Shown here one piece after another: positions 30,315 through 55,940 of a stretch of 64,000 nt of DNA. The notes beneath the pieces were generated by a model. That model saw only the letters and a list, made by a program, of their open reading frames with translations. It searched no databases and was not told the origin of the DNA. Position 1 is the first letter of the stretch, and each line of letters starts with the position of its first letter. The DNA is from Sclerotinia nivalis (taxonomy: Eukaryota; Ascomycota; Leotiomycetes; Helotiales; Sclerotiniaceae): assembly GCA_029531795.1 (NCBI GenBank), contig JAPEIS010000009.1, positions 1,364,001-1,428,000 on the forward strand. The letters are read 5' to 3'. Made by a program: the position numbers and the translations under genes.

Positions 30315-31121
30315 ATGTCATTTTCCTCCACTTTCACAGCCACAACCACAACTGTCACAGTCATCAAAACCTTGTACGATATCTTACCAACCACATTAAG
30401 CACCGTCATCAGCCCCAATCCCACCACAAATACCGCCGATGTAACATGGACCTCTCCAGCCAATGCCACAGCATCCACGTGTTTCTCTTGCACATCGCTC
30501 ACAAGCAATTCATCAAATACAACCACATCAACCACATCAAACATCACTAAAACTAAAACTAAAACCGACTCGGCTTTATGGTGGAAATGCGTAATAGCTC
30601 TTGGAATCCTAGTGCTATTTCATATCATCAGGCTCATTATTGTCGGTAGCGTGTCCGCAGAGAATAAAAATAATCCATGGATAGTGTTCCTCCGTACCGG
30701 CAATTACCCCGACGATATAGTCAAGAAAGAAAAAAAGTCTGCGGAGGAACAAGCTGAGAAAGAAGAAAAGTTTGTGGAGGAACAAGCTGAGAGAGACATA
30801 ATGGCGGCCGAGAAGGAGAAAATGGAGCAATACTTTCTCCAGAGCGATATCGACAGAGCCTGCATCTACCGTTTTCGTAAACGAGTCTTAGGTCTCGAAT
30901 TGCTGGAAGAAGAAAAGCTATATGAGGCAGAAGATTATGCGAGGGTCCCAGAACCAAAAGATCCCGGGTTGAAGATGAGTGATATGGTGGTCTTTCGAAT
31001 TTTGGTGGGAAAATATGAGAAAAGATACGGGGAAATGGCAAGGGAGGTTAAGATTATTATTGAGGATGAGGAGAAAGAGGTGGAAAGAATTCTAGCATCT
31101 ATTGCAGAGGAAAGTAGGTGA
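30315..31121 (+). CDS. Hypothetical single-pass membrane protein, 268 aa
   Basis: One intact frame with an ATG in good context (CAAAATGT) after an A-rich leader. Residues 1-88 are Thr/Ser/Asn-rich with many N-glycosylation sequons (NAT, NSS, NTT). A membrane segment follows at about 92-112 (CVIALGILVLFHIIRLIIV). Next comes a charged helical part holding a duplicated motif (SAEEQAEKEEK, then FVEEQAERD) and an acidic C-terminus (IIEDEEKEVERILASIAEE). I do not recognise a family. The layout suggests a short extracellular head and a cytosolic coiled coil; orientation is inferred from charge. No function is claimed. Confidence 0.72.
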   Translation: MSFSSTFTATTTTVTVIKTLYDILPTTLSTVISPNPTTNTADVTWTSPANATASTCFSCTSLTSNSSNTTTSTTSNITKTKTKTDSALWWKCVIALGILVLFHIIRLIIVGSVSAENKNNPWIVFLRTGNYPDDIVKKEKKSAEEQAEKEEKFVEEQAERDIMAAEKEKMEQYFLQSDIDRACIYRFRKRVLGLELLEEEKLYEAEDYARVPEPKDPGLKMSDMVVFRILVGKYEKRYGEMAREVKIIIEDEEKEVERILASIAEESR

Positions 31122-32310
31122 ATGAGGGGGGAAAGAAATCATCCGGTGGCTGATGAAAGGGAGAGGATGCAAATGTGTGAAAGGCTTGGAATTGATCCGT
31201 CTCTTTTTCATCCTTAGTTACAATACTGAGGGGTTCTGATGTTTGACTTTGTTTGGAAGATTGAAATGATTTGATATATGAAATCTGCATATATACTGAG
31301 TTTAATCAATCATTAAATGTCTTAATAGAGGTTGCCAGTATTTTATCACAATGATTTTATTATTCAAAATTTCTATATAACGAAATACAAAATATATTAT
31401 CAATTTAATAATAGAAAACTAAATTATATATAAAAGTAAACTATATATATAAGATTAAACTACATAAGAATATTTTCGGATCTGAAATAAAATTATTTCT
31501 ATTCTTCTTTTTGAAAAAAAAAAAGTAGAAATATATTACAGGTTTACAATCTAATTCTAGCTAATCTCTCTGGATATCTTAGGCATCCATCCTCTATATA
31601 ATCGATACTCCTTCTAATATCTTTTTTCCCCCTTTATAGAATATCATTGTATTATTTAAAATTCAATTAAAAGATGTTATTTGATCAATTATTAGATAGT
31701 CGTGCGTTTGTAAATGAATTATAAATAATAAATACAATTGTCGTAAAGAATTGAAAAATCAGAATTCAATTATCCTTAAAATCTTTAATTAGAAAACGAA
31801 AGATCGATAACCCTAAAGGGAATATATATATATCACGGGATAGTATGATCACAGAGCACGTTGAAGGGATCGGGGAATAGGTGGTATACGTGATTGGTAG
31901 AGTAAAGTAGAATTGAATGAGTTGAATGATTTGCCCTTGATTATATGAATCGAGGGTGGTATATATAGACTAAATGGTAGCTATCTAGTCGACGAGATAT
32001 TCTAATTAGGCAAGGTTTCTAATGATATTATATCAGGATCGATTTGACGATCGTAAGGATCGACAAGACCTGGAAGAGCTTGAAAGCTTAATGAGAAAGA
32101 GAGTGTATGATTATCGTAGATCAACAATTATGTGATTAGGTATCAAGTGATTACCCGTGACAATATACTGGCTACAAACATATGATCAATCTCGAGCACT
32201 AGCCGCTCAGAGGCCGATCAGGGTGATCGGCTTACATAACCCTTCGAACCGTGACAACAGGGAAATAAAAAGAATCATTCAACGTCTTTTTCCTTTCTAT
32301 AACAAACAAA
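31122..32310. other. AT-rich region before the micro-exon locus
   Basis: From about 31310 to 31830 the DNA is very AT-rich with TATA runs and no open frame, which could be old RIP-mutated DNA or an AT isochore. At 32022-32135 a 37-codon ATG frame encodes a charged helix-like peptide (DRFDDRKDRQDLEELESLM) that could be an exon of the micro-exon system. A frame at 32157-32317 is also open into the first exon but in another phase. The hairpin at 32213-32231 is listed separately. No promoter element can be named with confidence. Confidence 0.5.
32213..32231. repeat. 7-bp-arm inverted repeat upstream of the micro-exon gene
   Basis: GCCGATC, a 5-nt spacer, then GATCGGC, about 80 bp before the proposed start codon at 32311. 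Further GATCGA/GATCGT words lie at 32037-32062. It could be a regulator dyad or an RNA hairpin in a leader; there is no evidence beyond position. Confidence 0.55.
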
Positions 32311-33547
32311 ATGTCGGGTACGTGACGATGAATACCATCACATATCGTGCTATTTAATTATTTATGTATGCTGACGATTGATTCTTAGGCAATATTACAC
32401 AAGCCCTCCGCCGGAGAAGAATCCGGAGAGGGTAAGTACTTTCATAGGCTTCGATTCAATAGATAGGTATATAAACTAATGAACCGTTGTTAAAAAGAAT
32501 TCAACCATCCGACCATCAAGTTTCGGTCGAGTAAGCTCGCAACACTCAGCATAATTCTGTTGGCCGATTAGCTTATTGAGATAATATTAGAGAATATATC
32601 GTACAAGCTGAGATACTTCGTGAGAAGTAAGTATGCCCAATGGTGTCGGCAATTTCAAATTTCAGTACTGACTCGCATTCAGTGACGCGACATTCGATGA
32701 AATGTAAGGCTCAAGTCAATTTTCTGCTAGCCAACCATGAATATACTAAAAATAAATTAGTAAGGGAGAGTTTGAGGCAGGGAAGTTCGTATTCCTGTGT
32801 ATGCTACCTGCTTCGGATCCTGGTATTGACTTGCGACTCAGAGAAGATTGGCGCATCATTGAAGAAGAATTGTAAGTACTTGAGCTATTTTAGTATTATC
32901 AAACTCTTTAGACTAATTCTCGGTTTCAGCGATGTGAAGATCCAGAAACTGTACGTTTCATACATTTATAATTGTGCATAAATCTTCAATGTTGACCAAA
33001 TATAAGCAACAAGGATCTGGACGAATTGTAAGTTTTTCAAATGTAGATCATCAGAAGTTTTTATACTGACTTATCTCTAGTAAGGTTATACTCGACAAGA
33101 CGTAAGTGCCTTGAGCAGCAGCAAGTTTAGTAATATCAAAATTCTAACATTAGCTCTCTGTTTTAGTCAAGTTGATAACAATAAATTGTAAGTTCTCACA
33201 TCTTTACCTTTTACGCGATCATTAATATTGATAAATGTTAGATCCGAAGAAATTACATACGTGTGAGTGCCTCGACTATGATTATTATAAGGTCATATAT
33301 TGACTTATCTTTAGTCGGTGGGAACTTAACGAAAGGTAAGTGCTTCAAGCGTCGATTACCACTTTGTTGGTATCGTTGAAGAGGATCCCCATCTCCTACA
33401 TCTAGGTCAATTTACTTTGTCATTCGTATTCTCATCACACCCTACTTATACCTTCAAGGTACCCTCTCCATACTATCAGTCTTCTACCTCTACCAAATTA
33501 TATCCTGCTCTGCCCTCCGTATTCTCTATCCTGCCTTGCTCGACTGA
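32311..33547 (+). CDS. Micro-exon gene: heptad coiled coil with hydrophobic tail
   Basis: Fourteen exons: 32311-32317, 32389-32431, 32498-32530, 32591-32626, 32683-32703, 32761-32784, 32842-32871, 32930-32950, 33007-33027, 33081-33101, 33167-33187, 33242-33262, 33315-33335, 33406-33547. Together they give 153 residues. All introns are GT-AG, 52-71 nt, most with a CTAAY or YTGAC branch site. Exons 3-13 are all multiples of three (seven are exactly 21 nt) and open throughout only in phase 2. From about residue 28 the product is a charged helix; the heptads DVKIQKL, NKDLDEF and SEEITYV have hydrophobics at positions 4 and 7. The last exon encodes a hydrophobic tail (SIYFVIRILITPYLYL, then ILSVFYLYQII), probably membrane-bound. 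The start ATG is in good context (ACAAAATG), but exons 1-2 are the least certain. No family is recognised. The pattern may also be read as a non-coding array, but chance open phase across eleven exons is very unlikely. Confidence 0.75.
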
Positions 33548-34576
33548 ATTTTTCTGCCTAACTAGCCAGCGCCAGCATATCTACGCTTGCGAAACTGTCA
33601 AATCTTTTCATTTTGTTCATTTTACTCAGCCTTCAATCGTTTTCAATGCTTGTTTTATACACCTGTCGTTCGGTGCTCAATGTTTTCCCGGAAAGTTCTC
33701 TGGGCGTTGGGTATGAAATTTTTAGAGCGCCGCGTATATTACCCTTGAACATGTAGTGTGTATATTAGACTGCAGGATCAATACAGGATTTAATGGAGTT
33801 GCTAGTTGCTAGAATGGCTGTTTTTGTTCCCCTATGTAACGTTGGAAAAGGTAGTTCAAGAGTCTCTTACGCTAATAATTCATCATTCTTGATGATGTCT
33901 TTTCTGGACTTCATTCCAAAGCCAAAGATCAGATTTTCAAAAGATTTCTAAGACAGTTCCAAGAAATGAAAACCATTATTCTTCTAGTCACTCATGCCAG
34001 TCTTACACTAGAATATTCAGACTATCCTAAGACTCCCAGTTTGCTTGGAGATGATTGGATTGTGTTTTGATAACTTGTCACTTTCATCATATTGCTACTC
34101 TGTCAATCTAGTTACCCTACGTCAGTAATTTGCTGTTGCATTTCCCTGGTTATGGGTCACTCATGTAATGCTAGTACCGACTATGATGATGGGAAGAAGA
34201 AAAGAACATGAGGTGGGTTTTCGTGGCATACTTGAAGATGGAGCTGCCTTCTGCACTACTCTTTCTCGCCACGGTCTAAAGACCCCCCAATATTCATAAT
34301 CTACAGCATTTTTCTGTCCCTAAGACATGTCAATATCACTCCGCCGTGCTGCACTGCAGCGTACTTTCGTTTTCTAGGCCTAGTGGCGAACCCAAAATTC
34401 CAAGATTTTTCTGCACGTCTTCCCTCAACTAGAATACCTTTTCATACTCTATTATCCTAGATCAAGGCTTATCTGTCTAGTTACAGATAGAAATCTAAGA
34501 TATAAAATAGGACTTGATTTACTAGTAGCCCAAAATCCTAAATTCGGAGTATTTAACATAGCTAACTTCTTTTTAG
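33548..34576. other. Region between the two micro-exon loci
   Basis: Probably contains the 3' end of the first locus and the missing 5' exons of the second. An ATG at 34327 begins MSISLRRAALQRTF, a basic start like that of the first gene, but I cannot link it by introns. A possible 14-nt exon lies at 34511-34524 before a GTAGCC donor. No other gene seen. Confidence 0.45.
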
Positions 34577-35396
34577 TCAAGAAGAAATAAAGAATTTGTT
34601 AGTTTACTCTACTTAAGACACTATTATCTATTACAAGAACTATAGACTAATTATTTGATTCGAGGAACAATCAAATTAAGACGAGGTTAGTATATTATTA
34701 ATCAAGTTACGCTTGAATACATATTAATATTTTGATTTCTAGAGACCACCAGAAACAACTACTGTTCGTAAATCTTATTCTTAGAAAAAATTCAATTAGT
34801 ATATATCTAATATATAATCGAATAGTGAAGATCAGATTGAAAGTTTACAGAAAGAGTAAGTTAATCCTTGTTATTTATTCTTTTTTATACGCTATAGTTT
34901 TTTAAATAATACTAATATATTATTTAATTTATAGGCTCAATCTTAATAAACGTAGTCTAGAACAGTAAGTCTTTGGATTGATATTTAATTCTCAATTACT
35001 AATCTTTATAACAGTAATAGGGATCAAAAAAATTTGTATGTAAAATATATTCTGTTAATAATTATAGAATACTAATACTAATATCTTAAAGTATGGAGGA
35101 AGCAAGGACGAGGTAAGATTTTCTCTCTAAGATTATAAAAAAAATAACTAAAATAATATTCTAGATGGGCGAACCAAGACAGATTTTTGTAAGTAAATTT
35201 TGTATATTTCAACATTTTTGACTAATTATAAAATAGTAGTAAGGTCGAAATGAGATGGAATTGGAAGTTTATAGTTACGCTTTACGAGCTGCTATACTGT
35301 ATTGGGCGTGCATTTGAAATGTAAGTCTATTTCTATTAAGGATTCATCTTAATTATAACATAGAGCTAATTGAAGTTTAGTCGATTGATTGATTGA
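34577..35396 (+). CDS. Second micro-exon gene, paralogue, 5' end unresolved
   Basis: Exons 34577-34597, 34665-34685, 34743-34763, 34826-34855, 34935-34964, 35015-35035, 35092-35112, 35165-35188, 35237-35320, 35381-35396. The lengths 21, 21, 21, 30, 30, 21, 21, 24 and 84 nt are all multiples of three, and the last exon carries the stop. Introns are 48-79 nt, GT-AG, nearly all with CTAAY near the 3' end. In phase 2 there is no stop: QEEIKNL, NNQIKTR, DHQKQLL, EDQIESLQKE and so on, a Gln/Asn/Lys-rich coiled coil. It then runs RWNWKFIVTLYELLYCIG, a hydrophobic end like that of the first gene, where RW also precedes the tail. The region is much more AT-rich than the first locus, yet the frame is preserved, so it is or recently was under selection. 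Exons before 34577 are not resolved. Confidence 0.68.
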
Positions 35397-35406
35397 TTGA
35401 TTGATT
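35382..35406. repeat. TTGA tetranucleotide run
   Basis: About six TTGA units. The last exon and stop codon of the second micro-exon gene fall within its first 15 bp, so repeat-length changes could alter the C-terminus. Confidence 0.75.
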
Positions 35407-37231
35407 TAACGTCCACACTGAGTCTAAGACTATCTAGGACGGCTAGGGGCTCTATGAGCTCCTAGTTGATGCTATGGGGAGTTGTATGCTAGCTAACATA
35501 CAGTTTGTATAGTTTGGGTTTCTTTTCAACCCTTGAAATGTTGATTGAGGGCAAGTGAAAACTAATACTGGGGAACAAAGCCCGATATCTTCATCCTCTA
35601 AGACCTTTCCTTCCTCGCTCTCCCCCTACCCCTTGCTAATTAAAGCATCCCACTGATATAATCTTCTTCTTCGACCCAATCTGCTATTCCGACACCACTT
35701 CCCACAAAGGTCAAGAGTCATCTCCGTCAAGATTACCTCCAGCACAGCAAAAGGGTCCTCATACTAATGAAAAGCAACTGGAAGGCACCACTCTCCTCAG
35801 CTCGAACTCATTCATTAGCTCCTTTGCATGCCTTCCTAGGTGTGATGATCTCCAGCTTTGTTTGAATGTAAATAATCGAAACCGCCGAATGGAATATCGG
35901 TCATTTGAATGTAATGATAGTGGGGCGTGGCCCTAACCCTACCCACACACGCACAAAAAATATTTTCGTAAAATCGAGGAAAAGGCGTAATATCGTATCG
36001 ATGCCCAGAGCATAGCATTAGTTGATAGATGATGGTATTCTCTGTTTCGTGATAATCGTAGTGTTAAAATGAATGTGTTTTCGATAATCGATTGTCGAAA
36101 AAAGGTATAAAATGCGAATAAAACAGTAGCAAATTCCGTATCGAAAAGACCCTTCTGGAATAGAAGGGACTTACTAGGCGTATCATACCTCGTATTGAGG
36201 TAATAGTCGATGGCAGATGTTGAATCTAACCAGGGCTTCTGTAGTTATCGTCTGTATTTTGGGTTGATGTTCGTTCATCCTTTCGAAGATATTGATGCTG
36301 TAAAATCGTAATAACCCCTCCATCGTGAATATCGTAATCGGGAAACCCTCTCTCTCTCTTCCAATGTATCCGATTCCATCAAATGACTCAATCTTAGCTC
36401 TGCAGACTCTCAATAGAGAGCTGGAGGTTCGTAGAGGGCACCACGTACAGGTGTTGAGTCTTCGCCCTCCCTTGAAGTTTAGTCCAATAGCCTTCACTGC
36501 GTTTGTTCTTGCATGTATTGCAGAGTGGAGAGCTAGAAAATCCACTTGAGTCTTTGTAATAATAAAATCTTATCAAATACGATCGGCTTGACAAAAGTTT
36601 GCTGAGCCAGCCGCGAATATCGATTTTTGATGATTAGGATGGGTTTAAGTATGCATGTATGTATTTCGCAAAAAGAGCAGAAGGATATTCAGAAGTAGTG
36701 AAGCTTGATTCGAATTCATACTTGATATTTATATTCATTCTATTCATTCTATTCATTCTATTCATTCTATTCATTCTATTCATTCTATTCATTCTATTCA
36801 TTCTATTCATTCTATCATTCAGTCGCATTCGGTCGCATTCAATCGTTCGGTCATTCAGTCATTCAATCATCCAGTATCCTATCATCCTCAAAAGAACATT
36901 AATTCCAACTATATACAGGATATTGATCTACAAACCCCATAATACAAATTAATTCATCCTGCATCTCTATACTACATAATCCAAACATTATTAATTCCAC
37001 AGCCCCGCTCCTATACGTGTATTCAAATAAATCTAAAAAGTTCCAGTTATACGCCTCGAGCTATGCCGCCAAAGTCTAAGTTAATGGCTAAATCCCTTCT
37101 ATATACATCGGTCATTCATAGCGTCGTAATATTATTTACTTGCTGTTTTTTTCCCACCCCATTCCGTTTCGTACAAATCTACTCTTTCCGATATTTCCCA
37201 ACTATTCCGTTGAATTTCAGTCCGTAGATAC
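35397..37231. other. Gene-free stretch
   Basis: No supported gene. The frame at 36183-36545 (minus) shows no family features. A 9-bp minisatellite at 36733-36815 is listed separately, and variant CATTCNGTCGCATTC words follow it to about 36870. Confidence 0.55.
36733..36815. repeat. 9-bp minisatellite (ATTCATTCT)
   Basis: Just over nine head-to-tail copies of ATTCATTCT with almost no variation, so recently expanded. Its frames read as false Phe-Ile-Leu or Met-Asn-Arg repeat proteins. Confidence 0.92.
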
Positions 37232-52290: not shown

Positions 52291-53226
52291 TTCCCTTGGA
52301 TGATCGCATCCAGACTGTTCTCTTCTCTGTTTCCCAACCACGTGAAACTCTGAGGACCTCGATTATCTTAATCAAACACAAGATTGCTGCGACTGGCACC
52401 TAGATTCATATCCACTTGAAATGCCAAACCCGAGACTCGGCCGATACACTGTATCCAAACTCATAAAAAAAAGATGGAAGGTAGGTATCCGCAAACAAAC
52501 CATTCCCCCGCGCCCAAAAATCTTCCCGTTCCAAAACGCCAAGCCTTAGCACCCGTTAGCGCCCGCCCCCACAAGAACCTCTCAAACCTTGTACCAATGA
52601 CAAGCATGGCTCATCAGCCCTGTGAGAATCATCTCCTCCCTTCATGAATCATAACCAACAATATCCATATCAGAACCTTGATTTTATTTTATGTTGGGGA
52701 TGGGATTTTATTAATTAGCATGCATCTTTCGAATCTAGTGGATGATGCGACTTTTGAGGCAGGACAGTATATACAAGTGGCGGGGGAAGGTAAAGTAAGG
52801 AATGCAGAAATTACTAGGTATGTATGTAGGTATGTTTGATGTAAACGGTCGCCCTGATTGAGATTTGGTAGGTGGTAAGTAAACTCAGTTGGTAAAGCTA
52901 TAAACAGGTTTTTGATATGACGCAGCTGCTTGCAGTAAACAATGCGACAGGAATCGTTGCGGAGGAATACGTTTGTTTGTTCTCGGCGATGAGGTCATCT
53001 TTCCTAACTCACTTTGTGACTTGACGCCATCATGATGAATGAGATGAATAAAAGATGAGGGAGTATATATTAATATAATTCACCGCCACATTTCTGATTT
53101 CTGGGTTTTGATTTATTTACATACATAAGATTACAATACGACGTGATCAAAATATCATATCATATCATAACGCAGTTCGTAGACTCAATCCAATACAACC
53201 ATCAAACGACCCTAGAAATAGCAATC
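52291..53226. other. Divergent intergenic region
   Basis: Between the divergent SET gene and the small hydrophobic protein gene. No gene or notable repeat. The final 130 bp contain short ATATCAT repeats and resemble a leader. Confidence 0.5.
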
Positions 53227-53811
53227 ATGCCTTCTGTTATCGAATCCATCAATAACCTCTTCGCCTCCATCATCAATACCATCATGGCAACCTTTAATTC
53301 TATCATCGCTGTTTTCCAATCAATCTTCAATATGATCCTCGGTCTCATTAATTCATTTTTCGCTGCGCTCCGTTCGGCTCTCACTGGTATTGCGCAGGCT
53401 TTCGAGGGATTGCTTAGGTTCTTCTTGAGTACGTATTTCATTTGCTCGGTCCTTTTTATTTGTTTCTCCATTCTGGAAAGTGTTCAAAGTGGAAGAAAGG
53501 ATTACGAAGAGACGAAGAGAGACGAAGAGAGACGAAGAGAGACGAAGGGAGACGAAGGGAGACGAAGGGAGACGAAGGGAGACGAAGGGAGACGAAGAGA
53601 GACGAAGGGAGACGAAGGGAGACGAAGAGAGACGAAGGGAGACGAAGAGAAAAGTAAAATGATGGGGACTTAAGCTAACCATCCTCTTTAAATAGGCAAC
53701 ATAGTTGCAATCGGCGCGCTGGTCGCCGCATTCTTCGCCTACACAGTCTATCAACACCGTCAAGGACGACCTGTCGCCCCAGCACCAAGTAGCGCCAAGA
53801 AGACTTCTTGA
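53227..53811 (+). CDS. Small hydrophobic protein, 105 aa
   Basis: Exons 53227-53428 and 53696-53811 join in frame. The first exon encodes a run of amphipathic and hydrophobic repeats with an Ile/Phe/Asn rhythm (INNLFASIINTIMATF, then ILGLINSFFAALRSALTGI). The second supplies a clear membrane segment (NIVAIGALVAAFFAYTVY) and a short Arg/Pro/Ser tail. Small fungal proteins of this character are common but have no known function that I can name. The 267-nt intron has a consensus donor (GTACGT) and a TAG acceptor; it holds an expanded minisatellite. If the intron is retained, the frame stays open for about 80 codons of charged repeat and then stops. Confidence 0.78.
53512..53651. repeat. 10-bp minisatellite inside an intron (GACGAAGRGA)
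   Basis: About 14 copies of GACGAAGGGA or GACGAAGAGA, both purine-rich, lie fully inside the intron of the gene at 53227-53811. All three forward frames read as Arg/Glu/Lys/Thr-Asp repeats without stops. Confidence 0.93.
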
Positions 53812-55940
53812 GCTCTTCCTCTTCTCGCAAATTTTGATGGTGGACATGGGCGTGGGAGAAATACAATACGAAGAGAACATATGGAAACTTCCAAACAGGA
53901 GGGAGGATGATTGATGCATAGGAATGATACTATAGCAAGGGAAAGGAACGATAGGAAATGAAAAAGGGCGGTTCACTTGCGGGATATGCTTTATGATACC
54001 TCAGTTTATAGTACCTACCAATAAAATGGCTGAAACAAGTATCTGCAACGATAATCAGTATCTTACAATGGGAGTGAAGTACAAATGGCACAAATGGTAC
54101 GCATGGCACAGTGATACAATGGCACAAATAGCAAAATACACATCTTGTGATACATTTCCCGCAAGTAACACAAAAGTGAACGCTGACCTCAGACCTCGCA
54201 AAGCGCGTTCGGGACTCCGAATCTCATCAAACCGTGTAACCTGTAACGGTGTGATGAGAAGAATACCAGTAAGCGATTGATTGATTTCGTGGGGGCTCGA
54301 GTAGAAAATGATGTAGGTGGTGTTCGGTTACACGAAAAAGGGACCTCCTATGTCCAGGTCAATGCAATGCACTAACGACTCTCACTATTCGTGTTGAGGA
54401 AATACCCATATTTAACTGCGGAACTAACCATATTCATAGTGTAGATCACAATGATATTTCTTTAAAGGAGCTGAAGATTAGGTACCTAGACTAAGCTCCC
54501 GCTTGGGATGTAATTGATGAATATCTACGCAAGCCACATGGATCTTCATGACTTGGATGATTTATTAAGTGTCTCTGATAGTAAGTTCCTAGTAGGTGTC
54601 TTAAGTGCTGATGAGATGGGTGAAGGAACGGAGAGAGATGGTGAGATGACTATATCATTCTATCATTCTATCAAGTGAGTTTCCATCCGTTACCAAAAAC
54701 TTAACCCTCCAATTCACATCCCATCCATCCATACTCAACATATTTACCTGCAACATCACATCACCATCCTCATTACTCTCACCTCGTGCAACAACAACTC
54801 GGAATTCGGGACAACATCGTCGTCACCCACACAGAAGATCAACGCAGCAAAGCACCAAACCAAATACCAAAAAGCTTATTCCCTACAGCAACGGCAACCA
54901 AGTGATCGTCGACCATTTCCCAGTAATTAAAACAAGCACAAAAAAGAAGACAGCTCTTGGCTGTCTTAGCGGCACGTGGGATCCTCAATTAATATCCTTG
55001 AGTTTGAGCGGTTGAGCGGTTGGACAAGTAATTAGTAAAATTCGCTATTGCAGATATCCAGGACCCTTCTTTTTAACTTTATATTTATATTAATTAAAGG
55101 ATTGCATATGCTACCTCCGAGGAACCAATTTTTTTCTCCAGTACTACTTACTAGGTTTGAATCGCAGGTCTATGAAGGGAAGGATTGCATACATGCAGCC
55201 CACGTGACACAAATGAGGTATTTATTCTATTGGTTCGTTTCGATTCATCCATTTCATCCCATCTTCATACATATCGAGGACTTTACCTACCAAGCATTTT
55301 CCGGCGGCCAGAACATGGCTTGCTTGCTTTTCCTTGCGTGCCTTGCTTGCCTGTTTTTGCCCTGCGGAGACCGGAGGGGAGTACAAATTGAGTTTTAGGT
55401 TTTTGATTGAGCTTGTGAGTTCGATGTAAAGTTGTGGACGTGGGGTTGTAGTCTTGGAGCTTACTATCTACCTAGGTAACTAAGTTTGCACTTGCATTAG
55501 TTGTTGAATTTGTGGGAAATGCAAGCAATGCAAGAACGATTGAAGATTATTTCGAGCGGATATCGCGAGTAAATGTGTTTTGTTTTTGGTTCTTTGGTTT
55601 GTCGTGATTTAGAGATGAAGATGGAGAAATGTGGATAATAATAAGTTGCTGAAGAAAACCTGCGTACATACCCACCTAGTATTTCGCCATCAAGTTTGAT
55701 TCTCGGGTCCATCCCTTAAATTAATTCTAGACAATTCGCTTGCGGGACCATCCGTTCGATTGATCCAAGTAAATTATGTCCCGTGTATACAGTATGTAAT
55801 GCATATATAAGAAGCTCAATTTGACCTCTGCGAGATAATATCTGTGGCTACAACATCTTATCATCTCAAAGTAAATAAACAAGAATTGTCCCGTCTCGGT
55901 CCGTGTGATTGTCCAGAGTGAAATAAGTGCAGGTGAGCAG

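Follow-up and report, generated by a model that had tools for sequence, protein, structure and literature searches.

Does the forward strand of Sclerotinia nivalis contig JAPEIS010000009.1 encode a protein assembled from a long series of very small exons, each about one coiled-coil heptad in length, or are the signals that delimit those exons an accident of base composition? A preliminary description, made from the letters of the window (the whole 64,000-nucleotide stretch analyzed here), had proposed such a gene. We rebuilt it exon by exon and refer to it as gene 1. It occupies positions 32311-33547 of the plus strand, and its 14 coding exons, which measure 7, 43, 33, 36, 21, 24, 30, 21, 21, 21, 21, 21, 21, and 142 nt in order, specify 153 codons and a stop (Table 1). 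The proposed ATG at 32311 and the stop ending at 33547 are both right in the rebuilt model, and the 11 internal exons originally listed (33, 36, 21, 24, 30, and six of 21 nt) were matched exactly, also by an exon-chain finder run blind. Eleven of the 12 internal exons are both no longer than 36 nt and a multiple of three, and these provide 270 of the 462 coding bases. Exon 2 (43 nt) begins in phase 1 and exons 3-14 in phase 2. When the 11 micro-exons are joined, one frame is open and the remaining two contain many stops and one stop, so the earlier statement that they are open in phase 2 alone is borne out. All 13 introns are GT-AG, with lengths of 52-71 nt; the GT-AG boundaries had been described correctly, but the range of 52-66 nt given for the introns around the micro-exons was too narrow, as these span 52-70 nt. 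The ratio of intron to coding bases in the model is 775/462, or 1.68. Donors are GTAAGT, GTACGT, or GTGAGT at 10 of the 13 introns, and weak sites occur in intron 6, an open intron of 57 nt with the donor GTTCGT, and in introns 3 and 13, whose branch scores are 2.1 and 0.3.

Table 1. Features of the gene pair and its surroundings (positions within the window)
Feature	Position	Strand	Basis or remark
Interspersed repeat, ~340 bases, upstream of gene 1	31826-32167		DNA search of own genome
Gene 1 exon 1, 7 nt, ATG	32311-32317	+	start common to annotated protein OCU04_008398
Gene 1 exon 2, 43 nt	32389-32431	+	model and public annotation
Gene 1 exon 3, 33 nt, phase 2	32498-32530	+	model, blind finder, public annotation
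Gene 1 exon 4, 36 nt, phase 2	32591-32626	+	model, blind finder, public annotation
Gene 1 exon 5, 21 nt, phase 2	32683-32703	+	model, blind finder, public annotation
Gene 1 exon 6, 24 nt, phase 2, weak donor GTTCGT	32761-32784	+	annotation keeps next 57-nt open intron
Gene 1 exon 7, 30 nt, phase 2	32842-32871	+	model, blind finder
Gene 1 exon 8, 21 nt, heptad FDVKIQK	32930-32950	+	model, blind finder
Gene 1 exon 9, 21 nt, heptad LNKDLDE	33007-33027	+	model, blind finder
Gene 1 exon 10, 21 nt, heptad FKVILDK	33081-33101	+	model, blind finder
Gene 1 exon 11, 21 nt, heptad TQVDNNK	33167-33187	+	model, blind finder
Gene 1 exon 12, 21 nt, heptad LSEEITY	33242-33262	+	annotation reads through to stop in intron 12
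Gene 1 exon 13, 21 nt, heptad VRWELNE	33315-33335	+	absent from public annotation
Gene 1 exon 14 (last), 142 nt, encoding hydrophobic C-terminal tail and stop	33406-33547	+	absent from public annotation
Probable three-unit block, copy 1 (intron 7 to exon 10)	32872-33101	+	block alignment
Probable three-unit block, copy 2 (intron 10 to exon 13)	33102-33335	+	block alignment
ABC transporter gene fragment, between genes 1 and 2	33859-34025	+	72% match to C16:1340803-1340982
Gene 2 tentative first two exons, weak splice sites, low confidence	34327-34360, 34461-34479	+	start resembles gene 1
Gene 2 first three 21-nt exons, phase 2	34577-34597, 34665-34685, 34743-34763	+	read; annotation differs here
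Gene 2 exons of 30 nt, phase 2	34826-34855, 34935-34964	+	found blind; OCU04_008399 shares junctions among 34826-35188 exons
Gene 2 exons of 21, 21, 24 nt, phase 2	35015-35035, 35092-35112, 35165-35188	+	found blind; OCU04_008399 shares junctions
Gene 2 terminal exon, weakly hydrophobic tail and stop	35237-35324	+	model and annotation comparison
Interspersed 1.1-kb repeat downstream of gene 2	35383-36470		DNA search of own genome

The preliminary description had set the likelihood of such a chain arising by chance at about (1/3)^11, which is not a proper null because the exon ends had been picked to fit. We used a chain finder that seeks exons of 12-45 nt, in multiples of three and sharing one open frame, joined by introns with scored donor and branch sites; its splice-site matrices are generic fungal ones rather than ones trained on the S. 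nivalis genome. Under strict settings, two chains of at least four exons were found on the two strands of the 64-kb window: a seven-exon core of gene 1 (32842-33335, score 33.3) and a five-exon chain (34826-35188, score 18.8) in a neighbor, gene 2. Relaxed settings returned exactly the 11 internal exons of gene 1 (32498-33335, all in phase 2). Under strict settings, the longest chain in any of 1000 dinucleotide shuffles of the window had three exons; 16 shuffles attained this length and the other 984 fell short of it. The best shuffle score was 10.7, versus 33.3 for the real seven-exon core. The relaxed-setting control, one shuffle of each of 26 stretches (314 kb), yielded one chain of four with a score of -0.4. 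Another 250 kb of S. nivalis DNA, 200 kb of it flanking sequence and 50 kb from contig ends, held no chain of three or more under strict settings and none of four under relaxed settings. Across these 314 kb of real DNA, chains of at least three exons occur on either strand only at gene 1 and gene 2; read backwards, the same DNA gave one chain of three (score 6.0). An additional 10 kb around a locus on contig C16 was scanned and contained no micro-exon chain. The DNA scanned comes to ~324 kb in all, or 0.6% of the 50.3-Mb genome, and within that sample the two genes are exceptional.

Gene 2, which is absent from the preliminary description, is a second micro-exon gene ~1 kb downstream of gene 1 on the same strand and in the same phase (34577-35324). 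Its exons of 21, 21, 21, 30, 30, 21, 21, and 24 nt and its terminal exon are all in phase 2. The last five of these eight micro-exons were detected by the blind finder, and the first three, together with two tentative earlier exons, were added by reading. An alternative donor after 35320 links the terminal exon to a further one at 35381, on the margin of a repeat. The start regions of the two genes are alike (3 of 500 shuffles as good, in a gappy alignment); beyond the start, comparison of gene 1 with gene 2 gave no sign of kinship in the proteins (286 of 1000 shuffles as good; BLASTP E value of 1.6) or the whole loci (68 of 200). We pair the two genes on the strength of their adjacency and common design, and a neighbor of the same design is the strongest corroboration of the gene 1 reading. 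GC content is higher in exons than in introns in both genes (42.4 versus 35.2% and 35.3 versus 19.5%). An in-frame stop lies within 19 of the 21 introns counted in the two genes, a count that excludes gene 2's two tentative first introns, and it is the first full codon of the intron in 14 of those 19; such stops carry little weight, since in phase 2 a GTAAG or GTGAG donor itself creates one. With the stop in that place in 14 of the 21 introns, an unspliced transcript would terminate at once. The two stop-free introns (32785-32841 and 34764-34825) are also the sole two with the odd donor GTTCGT. One of them is intron 6, the sole open intron of gene 1, and its GTTCGT donor and length of 57 nt suggest that it may be retained.

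Both genes carry public annotation as hypothetical proteins, OCU04_008398 and OCU04_008399, with models that agree in part with ours. A model using 10 of the 13 gene 1 introns (1-5 and 7-11) reproduces OCU04_008398 letter for letter; the annotated gene keeps intron 6, meets a stop inside intron 12, and is without exon 13 and the tail. The last 73 of the 124 residues of OCU04_008399 follow introns 4-8 of the gene 2 chain (five of the eight counted), with an extra exon at the repeat edge, and its first 51 residues come from a reading that differs from the exons given here. These annotations are partial support for the exon chains, short of proof. Protein searches with both products against 5.77 billion sequences at E values up to 10 matched only their own annotated products; this search scores proteins sharing five-residue words, and the candidates scored numbered 18 and 3. 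Micro-exon genes of this type may be absent from the annotations of other genomes. Nothing exceeded the Pfam cut-offs for the gene 1 product, the gene 2 product, or an ORF upstream of them, Rfam had no match at 31000-36000, and DNA searches of the S. nivalis genome with gene 1, gene 2, and both tails gave self-matches only. The upstream ORF (30315-31121) is a single exon of 268 residues in which a stretch resembling a transmembrane segment and a charged, helical region can be made out by eye; considered as a possible relative or anchor, it had no paralog in its own genome and no protein match but itself.

The heptads are visible in the predicted protein. In the six consecutive 21-nt exons of gene 1, the residue whose codon is split by the junction is hydrophobic in five of six cases, as is the residue four positions later (5/6); position 2 is hydrophobic in four of six, and the remaining four positions in none or one of six. 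Exon 5, a seventh 21-nt exon (NDATFDE) that lies outside this count, has N at the junction and F four residues later, and the pattern is weaker in the four 21-nt exons counted in gene 2 (two of four at each of both positions). As read from the DNA, the register of the heptads in the 21-nt exons is fixed by the exon ends. The original proposal of one heptad per exon holds strictly only for the exons of 21 nt, the earlier ones being of 33, 36, 24, and 30 nt. The hydrophobic moment at a period of 3.5 was reached in three stretches by 290, 500, and 96 of 10,000 composition-matched shuffles, a moderate signal. AlphaFold2 run on single sequences predicted a long helix across the micro-exon part of OCU04_008399 (residues 33-123) and that of OCU04_008398 (residues 67-118), with low confidence (mean 60 for OCU04_008398; four of five OCU04_008399 models poor). 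The best 19-residue hydropathy mean in the terminal exon of gene 1 is 1.66, compared with 0.91 for the weakly hydrophobic tail of gene 2, and the N terminus of gene 1 is basic by eye. With its heptad positions, predicted helix, and terminal hydropathy taken together, the gene 1 product looks like a helical coiled coil, with heptads matching the 21-nt exons, followed by a hydrophobic tail; the same architecture had been proposed at the outset. A membrane anchor would fit this tail. The best reading of the sequence, and a supported one, is a gene of micro-exons, with inferred splicing, in which each exon amounts to roughly one heptad.

Traces of how gene 1 may have grown are found in its introns, which were compared with the donor hexamer and acceptor left out. 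Introns 7 and 10 are alike, as are introns 9 and 12 (0 of 2000 shuffles as good in each case), the likeness of introns 8 and 11 is weak (157 of 2000), and introns 10 and 13 show none (1270 of 2000). Four of the 78 pairs of gene 1 introns had a z above 2.3, namely 4/6 at 2.5, 7/9 at 2.3, and 7/10 and 9/12 near 6; the best of the 28 gene 2 pairs had a z of 2.1, and the best of the 104 between-gene pairs, gene 1 intron 7 with gene 2 intron 1, a z of 3.6. The likeness of introns 7/10 and 9/12 therefore points to a three-exon block that was probably duplicated. Alignment of 32872-33101 with 33102-33335 gave a z of 8.7 that none of 1000 shuffles reached, for a block picked after the intron pairs had been seen. 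The exons of the block are identical at 27 of 63 positions (9/21 each), against a mean of 7.95/21 over the 66 pairs of the twelve 21-nt exons, so that they are no more alike than unrelated exons while two of the introns keep their likeness. Aligned identity is unusable as a measure of intron divergence, since shuffled introns reach 0.79 versus the 0.72 observed outside the motifs, and divergence was therefore estimated by simulations that matched alignment scores; with assumed indel numbers, ~0.35 substitutions per site fitted the intron score best. The probability of 27 or fewer identical exon sites is 0.0003 at 0.35 substitutions per site, 0.004 at 0.40, 0.035 at 0.45, and 0.16 at 0.50. Positive selection on the exons was considered, but these probabilities are not clean evidence of it: third codon positions are equally scrambled (7/21 identical, against 14/21 at second positions), and exon pairs at other spacings are similar (20/35, 15/28, 8/14, and 4/7 identical at codon position 2).

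Repeats adjoin the gene pair on both sides. The upstream repeat ends ~140 bases before the start of gene 1 and recurs at 74-89% identity in at least 39 other places, where several of the copies are partial (best 40 of 362 candidates scored). The downstream repeat begins 59 bases past the gene 2 stop, its edge carries the last annotated exon of OCU04_008399, and it has at least 40 other near-full copies at 94-100% identity (best 40 of 438 candidates scored), from which it was probably active recently. Between the two genes lies the ABC transporter fragment, which is broken by gaps of 4, 2, 1, 2, and 4 bases that disrupt the frame; the C16 open frame aligned to it matches Pfam ABC_tran. The C16 locus, examined in case it held further micro-exons, is an ABC-transporter-like gene in which no chain of them occurs. 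Turnover of repeats around the pair suits a young or fast-changing locus. Elsewhere in the window, overlapping ORFs on both strands (53143-53673 and 53353-53976) lie, by eye, on an apparent short tandem repeat.

Short exons and loose splice signals are easily found by eye, and the finder's matrices were generic ones, so splice-like signals in AT-rich non-coding DNA might have fallen into such a chain by accident. The results from shuffled, reversed, and additional genomic DNA rule against this: none of the 1000 shuffles reached four exons, the 250 kb of flanking and contig-end DNA contained no chain of three, a second chain adjoins the first, and the public annotation has 10 of 13 introns of gene 1 and five of eight of gene 2 in common with ours, which leaves chance exceedingly improbable. 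A further reading, which we think unlikely, is that of a formerly functional micro-exon gene now decaying among the repeats that enclose it, the 5′ end of gene 2 having already suffered damage. Repeat copies upstream of gene 1 and downstream of gene 2, the frame-broken transporter fragment between the genes, the low GC content of the AT-rich DNA at gene 2 (24.8 and 30.4% in two windows of 500 bases), and the weak first exons of gene 2 all suit decay, but in gene 1 a start, a frame, and a stop are kept across 14 exons, and 10 of 13 donors are of a common type.

The likeness of introns 7/10 and 9/12, next to block exons that stand near the mean of unrelated ones, would also follow if introns had been copied, in the manner of introner-like elements, into an older continuous coiled-coil gene that they cut at heptad boundaries; such elements are known in some Dothideomycetes (PMC4457414). 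Both intron pairs, however, are three units apart and in the same order, as block duplication predicts, and a gene-wide DNA search of the S. nivalis genome returned the gene itself and no other copy, within a sensitivity that short, diverged introns could escape. We regard insertion of this kind as improbable. Membership in, or horizontal descent from, the aphid bicycle genes or the schistosome micro-exon genes (MEGs) is suggested by the many small, symmetric, phase 2 exons and by the published bicycle structure classifier, which scored gene 1 at 0.9998 versus a cut-off of 0.72, a likeness of form only. Against this, the classifier is aphid-trained, no sequence relative was found within the sensitivity of the searches, and the predicted gene 1 product is coiled-coil-like whereas bicycle proteins are reported to be saposin-like (PMC13041983); such kinship is the least credible of the readings considered and verges on the implausible.

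We consider it likely that gene 1 is a real, lineage-restricted, micro-exon coiled-coil gene, one of a neighboring pair in S. nivalis, an assessment that concerns the gene and excludes its role. The exon chain, its phase, the two genes, and the likeness of the two intron pairs are seen directly in the DNA; from these we infer splicing in the cell, pairing of the coil, anchoring in a membrane, splice variants, and a role along the following lines. Short fungal introns are paired by intron definition, reportedly so in Schizosaccharomyces pombe, to go by the title of a study of that yeast. Gene 1 pre-mRNA would be spliced across 12 or 13 short introns, each recognized as a unit; under intron definition the size of exons is little constrained, and those of 21 nt could therefore be handled. 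The protein would begin with a basic N terminus, continue as a long helical coiled coil, and end in a hydrophobic C-terminal tail, probably its anchor in a membrane. Gain or skipping of a unit would alter the length of the coil by one heptad with both frame and coil register kept, because the 21-nt exons are symmetric, in phase 2, and one heptad long. Gene 1 would have been enlarged at least partly by duplication of exon-intron units, with the three-unit block still visible through its introns. A broader proposition, to which we would give somewhat less than an even chance, is that this is a fungal micro-exon system independent of those of worms and aphids, in which an exon equals a heptad, units are gained by exon-intron duplication, the number of units or their splicing determines the length of the coil with frame and register kept, and the exons change in sequence more quickly than the introns that separate them. 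As to role, our guess, and a doubtful one, is that it is a membrane protein that assembles with itself or matches a partner, in a setting that evolves fast, for instance self/non-self recognition or the host interface.

A fungal gene of this design would allow tests of micro-exon recognition, of gene birth and growth, and of whether exon skipping tunes a coiled coil, and this pair sits in a plant-infecting fungus. Genes of this class are missed by sequence searches; more may hide in fungal genomes, where they could be found by gene structure.

Parasitic worms and aphids are known to have micro-exon genes; among the open-access literature matches listed, none describes a fungal gene of this construction, in agreement with the preliminary description, whose author knew of no such fungal family. 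Ascomycete genes have few introns: for the ancestral state, the inferred mean is 1.6 per transcript and the ratio of intron to exon 0.13 (PMC11649378), versus 13 introns and the far higher ratio of the gene 1 model. Functional microexons were described in 2024 as previously undescribed in filamentous fungi, in a paper reporting one in Trichoderma (PMC11121469); the gene concerned, Xlr2 of Trichoderma virens, belongs like gene 1 to a filamentous ascomycete but is a transcription-factor gene with one regulated microexon. Introner-like elements are similar introns that recur in genes of some Dothideomycetes (PMC4457414) and are spread across several genes and species, whereas here two similar pairs occur within one gene. 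Schistosome MEGs, 72 host-exposed genes in 25 families, consist mainly of symmetric exons no longer than 36 bp, which can be skipped with the frame left intact (PMC8293314). Gene 1 likewise has symmetric exons of 36 nt or less; the MEGs differ in being flatworm genes, heptad units go unmentioned in the available part of PMC8293314, and the protein search at E values up to 10 found no match between the two. The aphid bicycle genes of Hormaphis cornu have many small internal exons, nearly all in phase 2, evolve fast, and are seldom found by sequence search (PMC9168663). They are insect genes comprising hundreds of putative gall effectors, whereas two genes were found here, and the search for a bicycle protein relationship at E values up to 10 returned only gene 1's own product. 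In form, the resemblance is closer than the preliminary description had stated, because bicycle exons too are in phase 2 (PMC9168663), as are 11 of the 12 internal exons of gene 1, and it is a resemblance of analogy, not kinship.
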